Assembly: GCF_030268685.1 (NCBI RefSeq)
Contig: NZ_BSRQ01000002.1
Span: 62,001 to 126,000 of the forward strand
DNA from: Microtetraspora sp. NBRC 13810
GTDB lineage: Bacteria; Actinomycetota; Actinomycetes; Streptosporangiales; Streptosporangiaceae
Length of the DNA stretch: 64,000 nt
Reading direction: 5' to 3'
Part shown: piece after piece, positions 49,553 to 58,235 of the stretch
Layout of the letters: every line of letters starts with the position of its first letter
Position numbering within the stretch: position 1 is the first letter of the stretch
Translations under genes and position numbers: made by a program
The notes under the pieces: model-generated
Database searches by the model: none
Seen by the model: the letters and a program-made list of their open reading frames with translations, nothing else
What the model was told of the DNA's origin: nothing

Positions 49553-49933
49553 ATGACAGATCCGATGACCCTGGCCATCGCCACTGCCATGGCGGGTAAG
49601 GCGGTGGAGATCGCGGGCGAACCGGCCAAAGAAGCCATCGGGGCGATGGTCCGGAAAGTACGGGAGAAGTTCAGAGGACGCGCCGCCGAGGAAGCCCTCG
49701 TGATCGCCGCCGAAACCGACCCGGACTCCACGAACCGGCTCGGCGCACTACAGGGAGCGCTTCAGCGCGTCATGGGCGAGGATCCGGCTTTCGCCGGGGA
49801 ACTGCGGGCTCTGTGGAATCAGGCTCAGGTGAGCGCGGCGGCGCACGGGGACGGCGTGGTCAACGTCTTCCACGGTCAGGCCGAGAAGTCCATCCAGCTC
49901 CGTGACGTGCACGGCGGGCTCACCATCAACTGA
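49553..49933 (+). CDS. Candidate Bell-type effector with C-terminal amyloid-signalling motif
   Basis: A 126-residue protein. Residues 1-95 are helical with an amphipathic or hydrophobic first segment (DPMTLAIATAMAGKAVEIAG), a basic helix (GAMVRKVREKFRGRAAEEAL) and a further helix GELRALWNQAQ, fitting a small four-helix-bundle. Its last 25 residues (VVNVFHGQAEKSIQLRDVHG continuing GLTIN) contain Q-L-R-D-V-H-G-G-L-T-I. The same pattern, Q-A-R-D-I-T-G-D-V-H-F, lies at the N-terminus of the STAND protein encoded next. This arrangement is described for bacterial amyloid signalling sequences (BASS), where an NLR templates amyloid folding of a membrane-acting effector. ATG 49553 has GGAG at 9 bp. 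Family assignment is by motif and gene order only. Confidence 0.7.
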   Translation: MTDPMTLAIATAMAGKAVEIAGEPAKEAIGAMVRKVREKFRGRAAEEALVIAAETDPDSTNRLGALQGALQRVMGEDPAFAGELRALWNQAQVSAAAHGDGVVNVFHGQAEKSIQLRDVHGGLTIN

Positions 49934-50078
49934 ACGGCGTCCCCCATTCCGCACGCCGGTCACTCGCGTCACGTCTTACATCTGGAATTGCATATCGGAC
50001 AAATTCCTCGGCGTCTTTCACCGTGGTCACCCCGGCGTGAAATCCCGCACGCGAGCCAGGCATACTGTCGTCGACGGA

Positions 50079-52253
50079 ATGCCGAACCGGGGTGTGGTAG
50101 TGGTGGCAGAACGGCGACACAATGACCGGAACAACCCGGAAACCGTGCGAAATGAGGTTGACGGGTCAATATATGGGCCCCTTGTCCAGGCGCGGGACAT
50201 CACCGGTGACGTCCATTTCCACCGGACCGTTTCACTGCCTCCGCCCAACCAGCTCCTGCCGCGCCCACGTCTGATAAACCGCGATTCCGTCATCGCCGAG
50301 CTGGACGCGCTCCGCGCGCACGACACGGACACCCCGGTCACCGCGCTGATCACCGGCTCGGCCGGGGTGGGGAAGACGACACTGTCCCTGAGCTGGGCGC
50401 ACATGGTCCGCCCGCACTACCCCGACGGGCAGTTGTACGCAGACTTAGGCGGCCACGCCGGTGATGAGCCGGTGTCCCCGCATACGGTGCTGGGCGATTT
50501 CCTGCACGCCCTCGGCATTCCGGCCGAGCTCATCCCGGGCGAGTTCGCCAGGCGGGCCGCGCTGTACCGCACGGTCACCCACGACCGGCGGCTCTTCGTC
50601 CTGCTGGACGACGCCGTCACGGCGGCCCAGGTCCGGCCGCTGCTCCCCGCCTCCCCGCGAAGCGTCACCTTGGTGACGAGCAGGCACCGGCTGGCGGGTC
50701 TGCTGGCAGGAGGGGCGCACGGAGTGCAGGTCGATCATCTCGACGCCGACGCCGGTCTCGCCCTCCTCGTGGACGTCCTCGGCGAGGACCGGGTGGCACG
50801 GGAACCGCAGGCGGCGGTCGAGCTGGTCGAACTGTGCGTACGGCTCCCGCTGGCCCTGCGCGTCGCGGCGGCCCGTCTCGCCGCCCGCCCGAACTGGCCG
50901 CTCGCGGAGATGGTCGCCGCGCTCTCCGAGGAGCAACGACGCCTGGCGGCCCTGACGATCGGGGACGACATGGCCTTACGCGCCTCGCTGGACCTCTCCT
51001 ACCGGGCGCTCCCGCCCGGGGCCGCCCGCCTGTACCGGTTGCTTTCCGTGGTGCCGGGCAACACCTTCGGCGGCGACGCCGTGGCCGCGCTGGCCGGCAT
51101 CCCCGGGTGGGAAGCGAGGCGCCTGCTCGAACTCCTCACCGAGGCGAACCTGCTGACCGACACCGCCGAGGCCCGGTACCGGTTCCATCACGCCCTCATC
51201 CGGCTGCACGCCTCCCAGGAGGCCGAAGCAGAAGATCCCGAGGAGGTGCGCGACGGTGCGGTGCAGCGGCTGCTCGGCTGGTACCTGGCCACCGCCGCCA
51301 AGGCCGAGCGACGGATACGGCCCCATCGCACCGGGTTGCCCCGAGACGCGGAGTCCCCGCCCGCCGAGCCCACCGACTTCGGCGGCCCGGAGGACGCGCT
51401 GGCCTGGCTCGCCGCCGAACACGCCAATCTAGGCGCGGCGGTCACCGCCGCGTACGAGCACGGCCGGCCGGCCACCGCGTGGCAGCTCGCGGACGCCATG
51501 TGGCCGCTGCTGCTCCACCTGGGCCATCGTCAGGCCGAGCGCCTCGCCGTCGAGGAGATCGGGGTGGCCGCGGCGCGCGCCTGCGGCGACCGGCACGCGG
51601 AGGCGAAGATGCTGAACCGGCTGGGCCTCAGCCTGCACGACCTGGGACGGTTCGACGACGCCACCGCCCACTTCGAGCAGGCGCGCGCCCTGTGGGAGGC
51701 CCTCGGCGAGCGGGGCAGGAGCGCCGGTTCGCTGCGCAGACTCGGCTGGGTCGCAGCAACCCGGGGCGAGCACGACACCGCGATCGGGCACTTCCTGGCC
51801 GCGGCCGCGGTCTACCGCGAACTCGGGGCAGGCAGGAAGGTCGCGCTCGTCCTGACTGAACTGGCGAACGTCCTCATAGCGCAAGGCCGAGGTTCGGATG
51901 CGATCCACCATGCGGAGCAGGCACGCACGCTCCTTGACGGCGTGGACGATCGTTACAACCAGGGGCGCGCCCAGATCGCCCTGGGGCGCGCTCACATGGC
52001 GAAGGAAGATCGCGATGCGGCCACCCAAGAGCTGCGCGCCGCGTTGGAGACGCTGACCGAGCTCGGCTCGGCGACCGGCCGGGCGGAAGCTCTCACGGCA
52101 CTGGGCGAGCTGGCCGAACACGCGGAGCGGCACGACACGGCCCGCCGACGCTACGAGGAGGCGCTGGCCGCTCTCGGCGAGGGCGACACCGCGGCCCACA
52201 CCCGGCTACGACTCCACCTGAACCGGCTCGATCGAGGCGAGGGAGTGTCCTGA
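50079..52253 (+). CDS. NB-ARC/TPR STAND (NLR-like) protein with N-terminal amyloid-signalling motif
   Basis: About 724 residues. After a short N-terminus comes the motif VDGSIYGPLVQARDITGDVH (about residues 26-47), which matches the C-terminus of the upstream gene. A short Pro-rich linker follows, then an NB-ARC NTPase: P-loop TGSAGVGKTTLSLS, Walker B LFVLLDDAV, SRHRLAGL and GLPL-type CVRLPLALRVAA. A winged-helix stretch and at least five TPRs come next (DLGRFDDATAHFEQARALWE, EHDTAIGHFLAAAAVYRELG). It would be the sensor of an innate-immunity or regulated-death pair. The start is uncertain: ATG 50079 (near-leaderless after a CATACT -10) or GTG at 50100/50103. All choices retain the motif. It starts 145 bp after the effector. 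Confidence 0.85.
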   Translation: MPNRGVVVVAERRHNDRNNPETVRNEVDGSIYGPLVQARDITGDVHFHRTVSLPPPNQLLPRPRLINRDSVIAELDALRAHDTDTPVTALITGSAGVGKTTLSLSWAHMVRPHYPDGQLYADLGGHAGDEPVSPHTVLGDFLHALGIPAELIPGEFARRAALYRTVTHDRRLFVLLDDAVTAAQVRPLLPASPRSVTLVTSRHRLAGLLAGGAHGVQVDHLDADAGLALLVDVLGEDRVAREPQAAVELVELCVRLPLALRVAAARLAARPNWPLAEMVAALSEEQRRLAALTIGDDMALRASLDLSYRALPPGAARLYRLLSVVPGNTFGGDAVAALAGIPGWEARRLLELLTEANLLTDTAEARYRFHHALIRLHASQEAEAEDPEEVRDGAVQRLLGWYLATAAKAERRIRPHRTGLPRDAESPPAEPTDFGGPEDALAWLAAEHANLGAAVTAAYEHGRPATAWQLADAMWPLLLHLGHRQAERLAVEEIGVAAARACGDRHAEAKMLNRLGLSLHDLGRFDDATAHFEQARALWEALGERGRSAGSLRRLGWVAATRGEHDTAIGHFLAAAAVYRELGAGRKVALVLTELANVLIAQGRGSDAIHHAEQARTLLDGVDDRYNQGRAQIALGRAHMAKEDRDAATQELRAALETLTELGSATGRAEALTALGELAEHAERHDTARRRYEEALAALGEGDTAAHTRLRLHLNRLDRGEGVS

Positions 52254-52257
52254 CACG

Positions 52258-52311
52258 AAAAAAGGCCACCACATTCGACGATCCCCTTGTGGGAGGTCGG
52301 CGGTGGTGGCC
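52258..52311 (-). terminator. Intrinsic terminator, minus strand
   Basis: Minus strand: GGCCACCAC ... GTGGTGGCC (9-bp perfect outer stem, 30-base interior that can fold further) followed by six T (52263-52258). It is a textbook Rho-independent terminator for a minus-strand transcript, although the gene ending nearby on the plus strand is the NB-ARC gene. It marks the end of the small-peptide transcript. Confidence 0.75.
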
Positions 52312-52332: not shown

Positions 52333-52386
52333 CTAGATAACCCTCCCCATAAGAACCTTCGTGATCAACGACTCTTTTCCGGCCAT
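52333..52386 (-). CDS. Possible 17-residue peptide, coupled to the preceding small ORF
   Basis: ATG 52386 overlaps the TGA of the 36-codon ORF (TGATG), giving MAGKESLITKVLMGRVI before TAG at 52335-52333. There is no independent Shine-Dalgarno and the frame is too short for composition tests. The overlap and the shared LMG element are the only support. It could equally be chance. Confidence 0.25.
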   Translation of the reverse strand: MAGKESLITKVLMGRVI

Positions 52387-52496
52387 CAGGCACCCATAAT
52401 GATCGATACACCCTCAATGGCACCCATCATGATCAATGCATTTTTAGCCACACCCATCATGATTAACGGGTCCATAAGGGCGATAATGGTGGACAC
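52386..52496 (-). CDS. 36-residue hydrophobic decapeptide-repeat peptide (unrecognised)
   Basis: The GTG at 52496 has a perfect AAGGAGG (52510-52504) at 7 bp, the strongest ribosome site in this region. The product MSTIIALMDP-LIMMGVAKNA-LIMMGAIEGV-SIIMGA has a ten-residue period with an [LS]-I-[MI]-M-G core. It is Met/Ile-rich with only three charged residues. The segment has much lower G+C than the window and lies between a minus-strand terminator at 52638 and another at 52258, so it is a separate short transcript. It lies downstream of an AfsR-like gene on the same strand, the position of afsS beside afsR in Streptomyces, but the repeat differs from that of AfsS. Longer in-frame starts (62 or 77 residues) lack a ribosome site. 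Function unknown. Confidence 0.55.
   Translation of the reverse strand: MSTIIALMDPLIMMGVAKNALIMMGAIEGVSIIMGA
52391..52463 (-). repeat. Three exact 30-bp-spaced repeats encoding the peptide units
   Basis: CACCCATCATGAT occurs at 52421 and 52451 and, with one change, at 52391, so the DNA period is exactly 30 bp (ten codons). The intervening 17 bp differ between units. Confidence 0.85.
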
Positions 52497-52572
52497 GAAA
52501 ATTCCTCCTTGAGGAGTTTCTGGTTCACACAATAAAAGTCGGAAAAAACCCCTCTTGCGGGCTTTCGTGCTC

Positions 52573-52619
52573 ATACTACCAGCACACACCGGCGTTTCGG
52601 CACTCGCCCATTCACTCAC
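52573..52619 (-). promoter_or_regulatory. Candidate promoter of the small-peptide transcript
   Basis: Minus strand -10 TAGTAT (52578-52573). GTG-rich heptamers GTGTGTG, GCGAGTG and GTGAGTG lie upstream (plus-strand positions 52583, 52601, 52613). SARP activators bind heptamer repeats near the -35 region, but the spacing here (18 and 12 bp) is not the canonical 11 bp. A short hairpin with T6 (52543-52562) lies in the leader and could act as a weak attenuator. Confidence 0.35.
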
Positions 52620-52686: not shown

Positions 52687-55600
52687 TCAGGAACCGGTAG
52701 CTTCCACACCTTGAAGGCGGAGTCGTATTATTTCGGACTCGGGGGCATCAAGCGCCTCGAATATCGCAAGCGCTTGCTCTAGAAAAGGTCTGGCCGCTTC
52801 GTGCCCCCGCATGTGGAGCGAGGTCTCCCCCAGCCCCTGAAGGCAGGCCGCCTCCAGGGCTGGGTCCTCCAGCCTCCGCGCCTCACGCAGGCCGCGCTGG
52901 TAGGTCTCGTAGGCGGGGGTGTACTGCCCGCTGCCACGCTGCGCCTCGCCCATGGCGTGCAGCGCACGGATCTCCTGGTAGGGATCGCTTATCTCCCGCG
53001 CCAGCGCCAGCGCCTTATGGAAGTGGATGAGCGCTTGCGCGTGCATTTCCCGCAGCAGATACGTCCTGCCGATGTTGCTGAGCGCATCCGCCTCGTGTCG
53101 GCGGTCACCTGTCTCCCGGTAGACAGACAACGCTTCCCGGTAGAAGTGCAGGGCTTCGTCGTAACGCCCTTTGTACTGGTGCACGTTCGCCACGTTGTTG
53201 AGGGCCACTGCCTCGTTCTGCCGCCAGCCCACCTCACGCATTATCGCCAAAGCTCGCTGGAATAGTTCCAGCGCTTCGCGATGACGACCCCGGTCGAAAC
53301 GCCACTGGCCGATGTTGTTGAGGGCCATCGCCCCGAACGGAGCGTTGTCGAGGGTCCGGGCGATCTCCCACGACTGCTCGAAGGCGGCGACCGCTTCTTC
53401 CGTGCGTCCCAGGTAGTTCAGCGCGTTCCCCTTGTGCAGTAACGCTTCTCCCTCGCCATGCGCCACCCCCAGTTCGCGGTACAGCGCGATCGCCCGTTCC
53501 GCGTACGCCACAGCCGCCTGGTTGCGACCGGACAGCCAGGACACCCGCGCGAGATGGTCAAGGGTGTCAGCCTCACCACGCCGGTCGTTGATCTCGCGGA
53601 ACGCCCGCAGGCCCGCCTGCGCGTGCTCGAAGGCGGCATCGTAATAACCGGTACGGCTGCGCACGAGGCTGAGTTCGAGTTCGGCATGCGCCTCGCCGCC
53701 GCGGTGACCGGTCTCCCGGCAGACCCGCCGGGAGATCTCATGGATGTCGAGCGCGTCCTCCCAGTGCGCCGACCATTCCAGGTACTGAGCAAGGATGCGT
53801 GGCAGCAGGGCCGCGTGGGCGGAGAAGCCGTGGTGAGCGGCGTAGCGAACGCATGCCAGAAGATTGGCCCGTTCGGCACGCAGCCATTCCACGGCCGTGC
53901 GCGGCTCGGTCACCTCAGGCGCGTCAACCGGCGGATAGGAGACCCGCACATCGACGGGGCGCCGATGCGGATACAGCCTGCGTCCGGCCTGATCGGCGGT
54001 GTGCAGGTAGAAGTCGAGCAGCCGGTGTACGGCCTGCCGAGGCTCCTCCCACGGTACCGCCGCCGCGCGTTCGCGGGCATAGTCGCGCAGCAGATCGTGC
54101 AGCCGGACGCGTCCTGGATGCGGTTCCTCGACCAGATGCCGGTCGATCAGCCCTTCGAGGACGCGCTCCGTCGTGGCCCGGTCGTAGCCGATCAGCGCCG
54201 CTGCGGCGTCGGTGGACAGGTCGTCTCCCACATGGAGGCCGAGACGGCGGAACGCCCGCTGCCCTTCCGCGGAAAGCTCGCGGTAAGAGAGATCGAACGC
54301 GGAGCTCAGATCGCTGTCCTCCGCGTGCATCTCGGCCAGCCGATCCCTGGCTCGTGAGAGCCTGGTGGCCAGCCCGTCGACACCCCTCGCGGGCCGGTGC
54401 CGGAGCTTGTTCGCCACGATGGTGACGGCGAGCGGCAGATGCCCGCACAGGCTCACCACCTCCTTGACGGCGCGGGCGTCCACCTTTCGGTCGAGACCGA
54501 CGATCCGCCGGAACAAGAGGGCGGCGTCATTCGGCGCGAGGATGTCGAGCGAGAGCGGCCGGACTCCGTCGAGTCCAGCGAGCCGCCGCCTACTGGTGAT
54601 CAGCACAAGGCATCCGGGCGTTCCGGGCAGAAGCGGCCGGACCTGGTCAGCGCCGGCGGCGTCATCAAGCACGACCAGCGTCCGTCGATTCGCCAGCCGC
54701 GCCCGCCACAGCGCGGCACGTTCCTCCAACCGGTCCGGAATCCAGCGAGGATCTTCACCGATCATGTGGAGCAGGGATTTCAGGGCATCGGCGGCCTCGA
54801 CCGGTGGCCGGTTCGGGTCGTGCGCGTGCAGATGGAGGTACAGGCGTCCGTCCGGATAGCGGTGGGCGAGCCGGTGAGCGGCGTGGATCGCGAGCGCCGA
54901 CTTGCCGATCCCGGCCATGCCGTCGATGGCCTCGATGGACACTGCCGTCGGCGTGGGGTCGAGCGCCTCGTACAGGCGCTGCAACTCGGCCTCCCTGCCG
55001 GTGAAGTCCGCGGTGTCACGCGGCAGCGTGTCAGCAAGCGATGTCCCCTGCGCCCGCTGGACGGGCGGAGCCGCCAGACCGGGATCTCCGCGCAGGATGC
55101 GCTCGTAGGTACCGCGCAGCGACGCGGCGGGCTCCGCGCCGAGATCCCCCACGAGTCGGCGTCTGGCCTGGTGATACGCCTCCAGCGCATCGCCTTGGCG
55201 GTTACATCGGTAGAGGGCCACCATCAGGTCCTCGACGAACGATTCGTCATAGGGATGCTGCCCGACGAGCCGGTACAACTCGCCGATCAGCTCGCTGTGC
55301 CGGCCCGCCTCGAGTTCGAGTGCGAGCCGCATTCCGATGACCGCGCGATGCTCGTTTTCCAGGCTTATACGGAACTTCTCTACCCATTCTCCAGACAGTC
55401 CGGAAAGGGGTTCTCCACGCCATAATTCTTCGGCATCGCGCAGGAGACGCAGCGCGTCCTCCGCGTCCCCGCTGTCCGCGATGGCACGCGCCTGCGCGTA
55501 CAGCCGCCGGAACCGGTGTAGATCGATGCGCTCCGGGTCGACGTCCAGCAGGTAAGCCCCGGGACGCGAACTCACCCGCGCTTCATGCGCGCCGAATTGC

Positions 55601-55818
55601 AGCCGGCCACGCAACCGCGCGATGTAACTGTGCACACTCCCACGGGCCTTGGACGGCGGCGTGTCACCCCATACCCGCTCGATCATACTTTCGATGGAAA
55701 CGGGCTGCCGGGGAGTGAGCAGCAGGAGCGCCAGCACGAATCGTTCTTTAGCCGAGCCCAGTTCACGCAACGCCCCGTCGGCCCGCAACTCTACGGAGCC
55801 GAGTACTCGGAACTCCAT
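52687..55818 (-). CDS. Full-length AfsR-type SARP regulator (winged helix-BTAD-NB-ARC-TPR)
   Basis: About 1043 residues. A winged helix covers residues 1-95 (MEFRVLGSVELRADGALREL ... SVHSYIARLRGRLQFG), BTAD 96-245 (HPYDESFVEDLMVALYRCNR, GDLGAEPAASLRGTYERIL), NB-ARC 275-560 (P-loop DGMAGIGKSA, Walker B TLVVLDDAA, GLPL CGHLPLAVTI) and a C-terminal solenoid of seven or more TPRs (GRYDEALHFYREALSVYRET and similar). AfsR of Streptomyces has this layout, is phosphorylated by Ser/Thr kinases and activates the small gene afsS. The best start is ATG 55818 with AAAGGAC; a TTG at 55842 is less likely. It converges on the NB-ARC gene of the BASS pair, and a small repeat-peptide ORF follows it. Confidence 0.93.
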   Translation of the reverse strand: MEFRVLGSVELRADGALRELGSAKERFVLALLLLTPRQPVSIESMIERVWGDTPPSKARGSVHSYIARLRGRLQFGAHEARVSSRPGAYLLDVDPERIDLHRFRRLYAQARAIADSGDAEDALRLLRDAEELWRGEPLSGLSGEWVEKFRISLENEHRAVIGMRLALELEAGRHSELIGELYRLVGQHPYDESFVEDLMVALYRCNRQGDALEAYHQARRRLVGDLGAEPAASLRGTYERILRGDPGLAAPPVQRAQGTSLADTLPRDTADFTGREAELQRLYEALDPTPTAVSIEAIDGMAGIGKSALAIHAAHRLAHRYPDGRLYLHLHAHDPNRPPVEAADALKSLLHMIGEDPRWIPDRLEERAALWRARLANRRTLVVLDDAAGADQVRPLLPGTPGCLVLITSRRRLAGLDGVRPLSLDILAPNDAALLFRRIVGLDRKVDARAVKEVVSLCGHLPLAVTIVANKLRHRPARGVDGLATRLSRARDRLAEMHAEDSDLSSAFDLSYRELSAEGQRAFRRLGLHVGDDLSTDAAAALIGYDRATTERVLEGLIDRHLVEEPHPGRVRLHDLLRDYARERAAAVPWEEPRQAVHRLLDFYLHTADQAGRRLYPHRRPVDVRVSYPPVDAPEVTEPRTAVEWLRAERANLLACVRYAAHHGFSAHAALLPRILAQYLEWSAHWEDALDIHEISRRVCRETGHRGGEAHAELELSLVRSRTGYYDAAFEHAQAGLRAFREINDRRGEADTLDHLARVSWLSGRNQAAVAYAERAIALYRELGVAHGEGEALLHKGNALNYLGRTEEAVAAFEQSWEIARTLDNAPFGAMALNNIGQWRFDRGRHREALELFQRALAIMREVGWRQNEAVALNNVANVHQYKGRYDEALHFYREALSVYRETGDRRHEADALSNIGRTYLLREMHAQALIHFHKALALAREISDPYQEIRALHAMGEAQRGSGQYTPAYETYQRGLREARRLEDPALEAACLQGLGETSLHMRGHEAARPFLEQALAIFEALDAPESEIIRLRLQGVEATGS

Positions 55819-56058
55819 CCACGAGTGTCCTTTCGGCAGCAATTTACCCGCCGCTAGCCAGTTTCTCCCGTGTGGGGCTATCGGTCCACGTCACGACAGC
55901 GATCGATGCGCAGGCGCGACATACGGATGCGCTCACGGTAACTGCAAGGTTTTATCCAGGTCCAGTCTGGATGCTCAGATAGATCGATAAAAATCACAAT
56001 AACGGCCTGACTTATAGGTACAAGAAATCCTGGCCGAAGCGGAAAGGAGTTCACATCG

Positions 56059-57273
56059 ATGCCGTGCACAGAGAAATATCACGTGCCAGTCGGTCCCGAC
56101 GCCGCCCGGTGGGTGACCCGCCGGAGCGTGCGGACCGTTCTGGTGATCGTGCACACGGTCACCTCCGGCCAGCGGTTGCTGGACATCGTCCACCTGCTCG
56201 CCACCGACCTACGGGTCCAGGTGGTCTTCACCATCGGACCGGACGTGTTCGGCAACGGGGTGACCGAGCTGCTGAACCGGATCGGCGGCGTGGTCCTGCC
56301 GTGGCATCTGGTCATACGCCACCGGTTCGACCTCGCGGTGGCCGCCGCGTACGGGGGGATCGAGGAGGTGCACGCGCCGCTCATCGTCCTCCCGCACGGC
56401 GCCGGGTACAACAAGCGGGTGAGCCGCCGGACCCGGGGCGGGCCCGCCGGCGTCCGCGGCGTGTACGGGCTGAGCCCGCAGGAGCTCGTGCGGGACGGCA
56501 CGGTGGTGCCCGCGGCCATCGTGCTCGCGCACGACGTGGAGCTGCGCCGGCTTGGGCGAAGCTGCCCCGAGGCCGTCCCGGTGGCCGAGGTGGTCGGCGA
56601 TCCCTGCCACGACCGGCTGATGGCCAGCGCGCATCTGCGGCCCGCCTACCGCCGGGCGCTCGGTGTCGGAGACGATCGGGAACTCGTGGTGGTGACCTCC
56701 ACCTGGGGCACAGGTTCGCTGTTCGGCAGGCGCGCCGAGTTGCTGCCGCGGCTGTTGGCCGAACTGCCGCGCGACCGCTACCGCGTCGCCATGCTCCTGC
56801 ATCCGAACGTCTGGTTCGGGCACGGGATCTGGCAGATCCAGGGGTGGCTCGCGGACTCCGTGCGCGGCGGGCTCGCGCTGGTGTCGCCGGAGGCGGACTG
56901 GCGCGGCGCGCTGGTGGCCGCCGATCACGTCGTCGGCGACCACGGCTCGGTCGCGGTCTACGGTGCGGCGTGCGGCGCGTCCGTCCTGCTGGCGGGCGAG
57001 GCCACGGACGACCTCGACCCCGAGTCCGCCGGCGGCCTGCTCGCCGCGACCGCCCCCGTGCTGCGCCCCGATCGACCGCCGGCCGCCCAGCTTGCGGACG
57101 CCGCCGCCCGCCGTCCCGGCCTCAGGCCGGTCGCGGCACGGCTCACCTCTGCTCCTGGCGAGTTCGACCGGAACATGCGGCGGCTGATGTACCGCCTCAT
57201 GCGCCTGCCGCAACCGCGCACTCTCGCCCGTACCGAGCCGGTGCCGCCCCCCTTCGTCAGCGCCCCCGCCTGA
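56059..57273 (+). CDS. Glycosyltransferase-like protein of unknown function (GT-B/CDP-glycerol-transferase-like fold)
   Basis: A 404-residue soluble protein. Features fit a two-Rossmann (GT-B-like) protein: VLVIVHTVTSGQRLLDIVHL at the start, VLPHGAGYNKRVS in the N-terminal half, and a C-terminal half with VVVTSTWGTGSLFGRRAELL, MLLHPNVWFGHGIWQIQGWL and VGDHGSVAVYGAACGASVLL. The HGxx...D-H-G-S pattern resembles CDP-glycerol glycerophosphotransferases and related wall enzymes, but homology is not certain. Similar actinomycete proteins are unnamed. AAAGGAG precedes ATG 56059. The PfkB kinase gene follows after 23 bp, so they form a unit. The gap 55819-56058 is A+T-rich and must hold the divergent promoters of this unit and the AfsR-like gene. 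Confidence 0.65.
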   Translation: MPCTEKYHVPVGPDAARWVTRRSVRTVLVIVHTVTSGQRLLDIVHLLATDLRVQVVFTIGPDVFGNGVTELLNRIGGVVLPWHLVIRHRFDLAVAAAYGGIEEVHAPLIVLPHGAGYNKRVSRRTRGGPAGVRGVYGLSPQELVRDGTVVPAAIVLAHDVELRRLGRSCPEAVPVAEVVGDPCHDRLMASAHLRPAYRRALGVGDDRELVVVTSTWGTGSLFGRRAELLPRLLAELPRDRYRVAMLLHPNVWFGHGIWQIQGWLADSVRGGLALVSPEADWRGALVAADHVVGDHGSVAVYGAACGASVLLAGEATDDLDPESAGGLLAATAPVLRPDRPPAAQLADAAARRPGLRPVAARLTSAPGEFDRNMRRLMYRLMRLPQPRTLARTEPVPPPFVSAPA

Positions 57274-57296: not shown

Positions 57297-58235
57297 ATGG
57301 GAAGCAAGATCGTGGTCGCCGGTGTCACCAGCCTGTACATGGCGTTGCCGGTCGAGGGGTTCCCCCTTCCGTACACGCCCGTCCATTTCCCCGACTGGTT
57401 GCGTGCCGACGTGTCGGGGGCCGCCTGCCACATCGCCGATATCTTGCGTGCACTCGGTGGCGACGTCCGGCTGTGCACCTTCGTGGGAAACGACATCGCC
57501 GGACAGGCGATCACGACCTCGCTGCGTGCCCGAGGACTGCTCGGGGGCGGTGTTGTGACCACGCTGCACTCGTCGCTCGGTGTCGTGCTCGTCGACCCGG
57601 ACGGACGGCGCCGCGGCCATCCGTACCTCGCCTCCGTCAACGCCCTGGAGTACCCGGTCGAAGCGTTCCGCAAGGAGATGCGCGGCTCCGACCTCGCCGT
57701 GCTCACCAACACCGCCTTCGTGCGGCCCCTGCTACGGCACGCGCACCGCGAAGGGGTCCCCATAGCCGTGGACGTCCACGTGATCACGGACGTGAACGAC
57801 GCCTACAACCGGCCCTGGCTGGAGGTCGCCGACATCATCTTCTGCAGTGACGAGCGCCTGCCCTGCCCCCCAAGACAGTGGGTGGCCCAGATCTTCGCCT
57901 GCTACCCCGGCTGCATGATCGCAGCAGTGGGACGCGGCGAGCGAGGCTGTCTCATGGGACTGAAGGACGGCCGTCTGATCGAGGCCGCGGCCGTGGCGCC
58001 ACGCGGGGTGGTGAGCACTTCGGGGGCCGGAGACGCGCTCTTCGCGTCGTTCCTGCACACCTGGCTCGCCTCGCACAACCCGGTCGCCGCGTTGGAGGAC
58101 GCCGTGCTGCACGCGGGGTGGAAGGTGGGCGACACGTTTCCGGGTGCGGTGTCCCTCACCGAGGACGAACTACGCCGGCTGCGCGAAGCGCACCCTGTCA
58201 AAGTCGTGTTCGACCGCTGGGACGACACCGTCTGA
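57297..58235 (+). CDS. PfkB-family carbohydrate/nucleoside kinase
   Basis: A 312-residue PfkB-family kinase. The N-terminal SGAACHIADILRALGGDVRL and VGNDIAGQAITTSLRARGLL, and the C-terminal motif VSTSGAGDALFASFLHTWLA with the catalytic Asp, are diagnostic. The substrate is unclear: it lacks the ribokinase GGKGANQ sequence and has SGAAC in its place. It is translated from ATG 57297 (GAGGAG upstream), directly after the glycosyltransferase-like gene, which suggests a joint pathway for a modified sugar or nucleoside. Confidence 0.88.
   Translation: MGSKIVVAGVTSLYMALPVEGFPLPYTPVHFPDWLRADVSGAACHIADILRALGGDVRLCTFVGNDIAGQAITTSLRARGLLGGGVVTTLHSSLGVVLVDPDGRRRGHPYLASVNALEYPVEAFRKEMRGSDLAVLTNTAFVRPLLRHAHREGVPIAVDVHVITDVNDAYNRPWLEVADIIFCSDERLPCPPRQWVAQIFACYPGCMIAAVGRGERGCLMGLKDGRLIEAAAVAPRGVVSTSGAGDALFASFLHTWLASHNPVAALEDAVLHAGWKVGDTFPGAVSLTEDELRRLREAHPVKVVFDRWDDTV

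Follow-up and report, generated by a model that had tools for sequence, protein, structure and literature searches.

In the window (the whole stretch of 64,000 nucleotides analysed here, from a soil bacterium of the antibiotic-producer type), a short open reading frame between two STAND-protein genes probably specifies a propeptide that yields a small ligand of the adjoining SARP-NOD-TPR activator. The likeliest role of this ligand is that of a pheromone that is exported and then re-imported. The peptide seems to be a member of a so far unrecognised family of small peptides, many of them apparently secreted, that are encoded beside one kind of sensor-regulator and whose common feature is a core of a few residues around a conserved methionine.

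The frame, ORF1, comprises 36 codons on the minus strand (52386..52496), from a GTG start at 52496 to a TGA stop at 52386. As the initial annotation had claimed, it follows an AAGGAGG Shine-Dalgarno sequence at good spacing (52504..52510, minus strand, 7 nt before the start codon; duplex energy -11.2 kcal/mol), and its product, MSTIIALMDPLIMMGVAKNALIMMGAIEGVSIIMGA, contains three I-[MI]-M-G units. These are encoded on the minus strand by DNA repeats 30 bp apart, at 52389-52418 (SIIMG), 52419-52448 (LIMMG) and 52449-52478 (LIMMG); the units 52389-52418 and 52419-52448 are 70% identical as a repeat pair, the remaining one was assigned by register, and Tandem Repeats Finder reported no array over the ORF1 repeats. 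The low-GC island noticed earlier was also confirmed, the gap having a GC content of 0.475-0.52 in 200-bp windows versus about 0.60-0.78 for the flanking genes. The peptide is hydrophobic and rich in Met and Ile (GRAVY 1.56). A single TTA codon is present within ORF1 (52464-52466); in actinomycetes, this codon is often a sign of bldA developmental control.

Judging from the letters alone, TAGTAT at 52573..52578 (minus strand) is a possible -10 element that might give ORF1 its own promoter. SARP-type direct repeats of 11 or 22 bp (6 of 7) preceded none of 41 candidate peptide promoters (0.3 expected). Downstream, the peptide transcript is predicted to end at an intrinsic terminator (52258..52311, minus strand; stem 52311-52264, followed by six T). 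It is strong (MFE -31.6, z -2.9), and the consensus terminator scan, with its loop limit of 8, had no entry for this hairpin. Leader-peptide attenuation was rejected for the window, because the transcript ends at the terminator and the gene beyond it is convergent. The 17-codon second frame described in the initial annotation, ORF2 (MAGKESLITKVLMGRVI; 52333..52386, minus strand), runs from ATG at 52386 to TAG at 52333 and overlaps ORF1 by TGATG. It contains a core-like VLMG as well as an extra out-of-frame repeat copy (52356-52377), and may be a frameshifted further repeat unit. ORF2 was also considered as a second conserved peptide and set aside, since relatives read by eye gave no counterpart.

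The position between two STAND genes, downstream of a large SARP gene on the same strand, is likewise as first described. The SARP-NOD-TPR regulator that we propose as the receptor lies at 52687..55842 (minus strand; Pfam BTAD, NB-ARC, and TPR), upstream of ORF1, with a likely start at 55818 (MEFRVLG...). Its approximately 1040 residues comprise the OmpR-type DNA-binding, BTAD, NB-ARC, and TPR parts by which large SARPs are recognized. The proposed likeness to afsR-afsS of Streptomyces holds for position only: in both, a large SARP gene is followed by a small gene, whereas the SARP of the window scores 584 against the NCBIfam AfsR equivalog, below its cut-off of 1430, and no afs-box-type repeat was found before the peptide promoters. 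The second STAND protein, of NB-ARC-TPR type by Pfam, is encoded on the plus strand at 49902..52253, convergent with the peptide locus.

With the whole 36-residue peptide as query, a match was obtained in the window's own genome only (149 relatives searched; E 1.5e-15). Four other full-peptide matches (E 0.39-0.74), inside frames of 502-983 codons, were read as chance, and none was found in plasmids. A DNA pattern with two ATGATGGG was also tried and abandoned: it matched 161 of 341 genomes, and among the matches listed a recurrent Met-Gly-rich stretch dominates, apparently from another protein. Because the full peptide was confined to its own genome, relatives were sought through the SARP gene, which has a match at E 1e-100 in 222 of 250 genomes of the family searched, including a group of long, high-scoring orthologues. 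Downstream of SARP orthologues stand tiny ORFs that share the core, such as those for MPFFEWLIMMG (L036), the GTG-initiated HYIMMGLAFIMMG (L039), and a precursor of 70 residues (L038) that begins like a signal peptide and contains the cores LIMMG, AIMMG, and IVMG. Other core forms are IYMT, VHMT, MFMT, IWMT, and FQMI; VHMT follows Sec-like leaders in Actinomadura, and LIMMG occurs in Nonomuraea. In other words, the search for the repeat downstream of other SARPs that had been advised was fruitful for the core, which recurs beside orthologues, and not for the full decapeptide array. The exact three-unit form is peculiar to this genome, relatives carrying one to three units; conservation, by which the frame was to be judged, thus fails for the whole frame beyond this genome and holds for the repeated core. 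None of nine precursors scored above cut-off in Pfam or NCBIfam. In L036, the core codons at the end of MPFFEWLIMMG and the bases past the stop form an inverted repeat, ATGATGGGATGACCATCCCATCAT.

From the discovery loci, the core was written as [ILVMF][FYWHM]M[TGVL], and this pattern was set in the scanning script, though not recorded in advance, before the held-out sequences were read. A locus was counted when a same-strand ORF of 9-80 codons, starting no more than 600 nt past the SARP stop, contained the core. The held-out set came from 80 of the 91 family genomes not previously searched for the SARP, which yielded 45 matches; the 30 that came with loci were used. The core was found in 18 of these 30 loci (which are related to one another and to the discovery loci, so that they do not represent 18 independent events), compared with 0.42 on average in dinucleotide shuffles (maximum 2 over 200 runs) and 0/30 on the reverse strand. 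In 16 held-out loci, the last residues of the ORF are the core itself (0.01 expected), and five contain at least two cores (none in shuffles). By the same measure, the discovery loci gave 26/70 (shuffles, 1.4; reverse strand, 2). A post hoc change allowing W at position 4 adds L125, L127, L139, L143, and L144 (MMMW, MFMW, IFMW), whereupon all 23 held-out loci lying in peptide-bearing clades have the core. It is in none of the remaining seven, six of which lie outside those clades and one of which (L154) is too short to place.

Under the fixed scan, none of 54 other named large SARPs (from Lentzea, Nocardia, Solihabitans, Streptomyces, and others) had the core. This control was drawn from 62 loci (L172-L233), from which L174, L177, L179, L181, L192, and L210 were excluded beforehand as duplicates or doubtful, and L217 and L219 were lost for length. 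Among distant large SARPs from a class search, 1/26 had the core, in a GC-rich frame; of the 30 class-search loci, L234 (the window) and L236 (the same locus as L090) were excluded and L241 and L256 were too short. Matches at L090/L179 (LYMW, in a membrane-protein-like ORF; L179 has the core only by the extended pattern) and at L263 were read as chance. A scan of the named organisms' contigs supplied 79 loci, of which 19 were duplicated loci already in the set; L167, L177, L171, and L192 were excluded from set A3. The peptide adjoins the SARP in Nonomuraea turkmeniaca, N. solani, and Nonomuraea sp. SYSU D8015, in Actinomadura macra, chibensis, latina, pelletieri, spongiicola, logoneensis, and others, and in Streptosporangium amethystogenes; no peptide was seen at the Acrocarpospora loci (L160, L162, L163) or at L158. 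It is the presence of the core beside orthologous SARPs, and not the ORF alone, that places it above chance.

The core types follow the phylogeny of the regulator. In a FastTree phylogeny of 158 large SARPs (L154 was too short for inclusion), FQMI occupies 4 rows, IMMG/MMMD/MMMW together with the window 10, IFMW/xFMT 11, and IWMx/xFMx 18, and VHMT/IHMT/IYMT belongs to a 24-row clade. For 55 rows labelled by hand with six types, the core type changes 6 times on the tree, compared with a mean of 30.3 (minimum 25) for 200 shuffles of the labels that ignore relatedness. The extended pattern combined with a Shine-Dalgarno cut recovers a peptide in 50/68 rows of the peptide clades (L073 included, and L192, with its long and doubtful branch, left outside), a count that includes loci that supplied the pattern, versus 1/90 other large SARPs. 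Adding those read by hand (L125, L127, L035=L177, L142, L047, L072, L068) gives a peptide in 57/68, and 11/68 clade members have none even by eye. In the 50 scanned matches, the peptide ORF starts 65-583 nt past the SARP stop. The sister group of the window's 14-row clade, comprising 29 SARPs, yielded no peptide by the scan (one doubtful leader-like ORF, L078), which points to loss, a separate gain, or unrecognised cores. Two genomes, G049 and G089, each have two paralogous SARPs, one in an FQMI-type and one in an IYMT-type pair. Since receptor clades have different cores, the family seems to comprise several distinct channels.

The peptide ORF is under purifying selection: eight close pairs gave pS 0.40 and pN 0.15 (ratio 0.38), one pair being identical. 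Outside the core, precursor sequence diverges fast. Precursor lengths are 11-70 residues, and several precursors hold two or three cores; start codons were chosen by eye or by the best Shine-Dalgarno fit. In the VHMT/IHMT/IYMT precursors, a basic residue is present at positions 2-6 in 21/21, a small-x-small site (a permissive pattern) in 19/21, and an exact C-terminal core in 17/21. A 22nd of this type, L030 (MKRFLV...ANAARAVHMT...VHMTGCPI), has a leader and two VHMT. Judged by eye, the leaders of these 22 forms and of L038 look Sec-type. In L136 and L146 the leader ends in AWA directly before VHMT, which cleavage behind AWA would free. For most peptides of the window's clade (11-43 residues), the window form included, no Sec leader is seen, L038 being the sole exception.

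As for the receptor, a model of the C-terminal 444 residues of the window's SARP, built with 18 sequences (pLDDT 92.7, 22 helices), shows this TPR part as a superhelix resembling peptide-bound TPRs. Fold matches of the TPR part include the peptide complexes of LGN and KLC1, a degron complex of APPBP2 (TMq 0.70) and, at rank 49, the complex of Rap and competence and sporulation factor (4gyo; TMt 0.66), to be read with the caveat that TPR-fold matches come easily. By sequence, it matches many TPR proteins, including AfsR and RapH (E 8.7e-12). The TPR part diverges faster than the NOD, and three receptor columns separate the core types, too few to place a binding site. The parts of PMC10936776 that concern AfsR describe inhibition of the SARP domain by the protein's own NOD and TPR domains, with an inducer presumed necessary for STAND activation. 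For AfsR itself, ATP and phosphorylation are the switches reported there, so a peptide need not be required by every large SARP. In the available parts of PMC10936776 and PMC10972967, no peptide is named as a ligand of the TPR domain in large SARPs, AfsR among them.

Several neighbouring genes recur with the pair. Divergent from the SARP gene in the window is one for a GT-B-fold, TagF-like protein (56059..57273, plus strand; structure model pLDDT 79.9) with no Pfam or NCBIfam family, followed by a PfkB-family kinase gene (57300..58235, plus strand; 5' end provisional). The GT-B gene is present at 25/28 distinct peptide loci (29 before removal of one duplicate; absent from L040, L041, and L042) versus 7/68 distinct SARP loci without a peptide, and the PfkB gene at 16/28 versus 4/68. 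Two Streptomyces loci in which no peptide was found (L183, L209) have the GT-B gene as well. The GT-B protein is a probable target or partner of the SARP, and the arrangement of the GT-B gene, often followed by PfkB, divergent from SARPs perhaps reflects an older SARP-regulated pathway. The closest relatives of the second STAND protein (62-65% identical) adjoin the peptide in the window's clade (L155-L157, L039), and relatives at 39-52% flank the cassette at L161, L164, L166, L168, L159, L165, L170, L047, L053, and L052. Near the N-terminus, before the NB-ARC domain, a stretch like N-x-V-x-G-x-x-x-G-x-x-V-Q-A-R-D-[IV]-x-G is common to this protein and its relatives; it is reminiscent of the RHIM-like amyloid motifs in actinobacterial NLRs. 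At seven VHMT/IYMT-type loci (for example, L053 1724-2356, L159 3845-4468, and L165 4075-4623), the GT-B gene is accompanied by a member of a family of about 200 residues that has no Pfam match. The GT-B, PfkB, second STAND, and 200-residue proteins are likely regulon members or partners. In L038 (G067), read by eye, a histidyl-tRNA synthetase-like gene lies approximately 0.7 kb past the SARP stop, behind the IMMG precursor.

We propose that activity resides in the core, which lies at or close to the C-terminus, has the form hydrophobic-x-Met-[Gly/Thr/Trp/...], and is repeated in some precursors (three times here). The precursor would be expressed, exported, and processed, and the core re-imported to bind the TPR superhelix of the SARP; binding would lift the NOD-TPR autoinhibition of the SARP domain, and the activated SARP would then switch on neighbouring promoters, namely those of the peptide gene and of the divergent GT-B/PfkB genes. 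This resembles the RRNPP systems (Rap-Phr, PlcR-PapR, NprR-NprX, Rgg-SHP, AimR-AimP), in which a small propeptide gene adjoins that of a cytosolic TPR receptor, the peptide has a Sec-like leader (here judged by eye in the VHMT/IHMT/IYMT forms and L038, and not seen in the window form) or a short hydrophobic form, and peptide variation is matched to the receptor clade; the precursor lengths and position also fit the RRNPP propeptide criterion (10-100 residues). The pair would work like RRNPP or Rgg-SHP and is not a member, because its receptor, a SARP-NOD-TPR STAND protein of approximately 1040 residues, belongs to a different family and exceeds the upper size limit more than twofold (250-500 residues in the available description of RRNPP_detector). 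It also differs in the conserved Met of the core and in its host phylum, Actinomycetota, whose signals are typically small molecules, peptide signals being typical of Bacillota, as far as the accessible part of PMC10075063 describes them. The title of a paper cited in PMC10972967 reports that NosP, a SARP of the nosiheptide cluster, responds to peptidyl ligands derived from a precursor peptide; that ligand comes from an antibiotic precursor, whereas here there is a dedicated neighbouring peptide gene and no product cluster was seen. The initial annotation had offered a signalling peptide linked to a STAND neighbour, and of this the link to the SARP-NOD-TPR gene recurs across genera, with signalling itself supported as a possibility.

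One rival reading is that the peptide never leaves the cell, acting as a cytosolic co-activator or inhibitor of the SARP or of the second STAND protein. Leaderless forms of 11-14 residues exist (L036, L039, L125, L127, L040, L041, L042, L014) and the position of the gene matches that of afsS beside afsR; however, the Sec-like leaders of the 22 VHMT/IHMT/IYMT forms and of L038 make hardly any sense for a purely cytosolic ligand, and repeated cores suggest processing. We regard such a micropeptide cofactor as rather unlikely. A RiPP precursor, whose cluster the SARP regulates and which the GT-B and PfkB enzymes modify, appears improbable. FxSxx-COOH and HaaA, which are cyclophane RiPP systems, are likewise actinobacterial and, by the names of their NCBIfam models, include a TPR/STAND protein. 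The HaaT and FxSxx TPR models do match the SARP, far below cut-off; the frequency of the GT-B gene at peptide loci and the recurrent 200-residue family could also be read in favour of a RiPP. Against it, no recognised modifying enzyme recurs among the neighbours (which were clustered, with few scanned for families), cores like LIMMG have no residue for usual glycosylation or cross-linking, and the GT-B gene also accompanies SARPs without a peptide.

The remaining alternatives carry still less weight. A membrane-active or type I toxin-like peptide linked to the regulators, as the initial annotation had entertained, would suit the Met/Ile-rich hydrophobic sequence of ORF1, but the conserved part is just 4-5 residues in precursors of 11 to 70; many members consist of a leader and a core of 4-6 residues, some have 11 residues in all, and the mature parts of the VHMT type would be short and not hydrophobic helices, which makes this reading very improbable. 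It would be about as surprising if the locus were a non-coding element or the ORFs were there by chance. The ORF is known from its sequence, and precursors diverge fast outside the core; the held-out enrichment of the core, the pN/pS ratio, and the empty named control nevertheless speak for translation. The earlier suggestion of an amyloid-prone peptide, acting with a STAND protein, is barely credible. In amyloid signalosomes, a motif is common to sensor and effector, and the core pattern is absent from both STAND proteins of the window, which therefore lack the shared motif of a bacterial amyloid signalosome (BASS). Amyloid motifs at the N-termini of actinobacterial NLR-like proteins are described in the available text of PMC7889193.

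With the exported-ligand reading preferred, there is perhaps an even chance that Nonomuraea, Streptosporangium, and Actinomadura use a pheromone language of very short C-terminal peptides (such as VHMT, IFMW, LIMMG), in which secretion and uptake would be followed by binding within the TPR superhelix of the SARP, with clade-specific cores and, possibly, two channels per genome. In the open-access literature searched (most subscription papers lie outside it), no published account of these peptide-SARP pairs was found. It is an old observation that an imported oligopeptide signals development in Streptomyces. If the proposal is true, it would supply a receptor model for such signals, name a ligand class for STAND activators, provide very short candidate peptides that are testable at once, and give a handle on the silent regulons of antibiotic producers. 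Taken together, these observations suggest that peptides serve as a chemical language in a bacterial group with no known system of this type.
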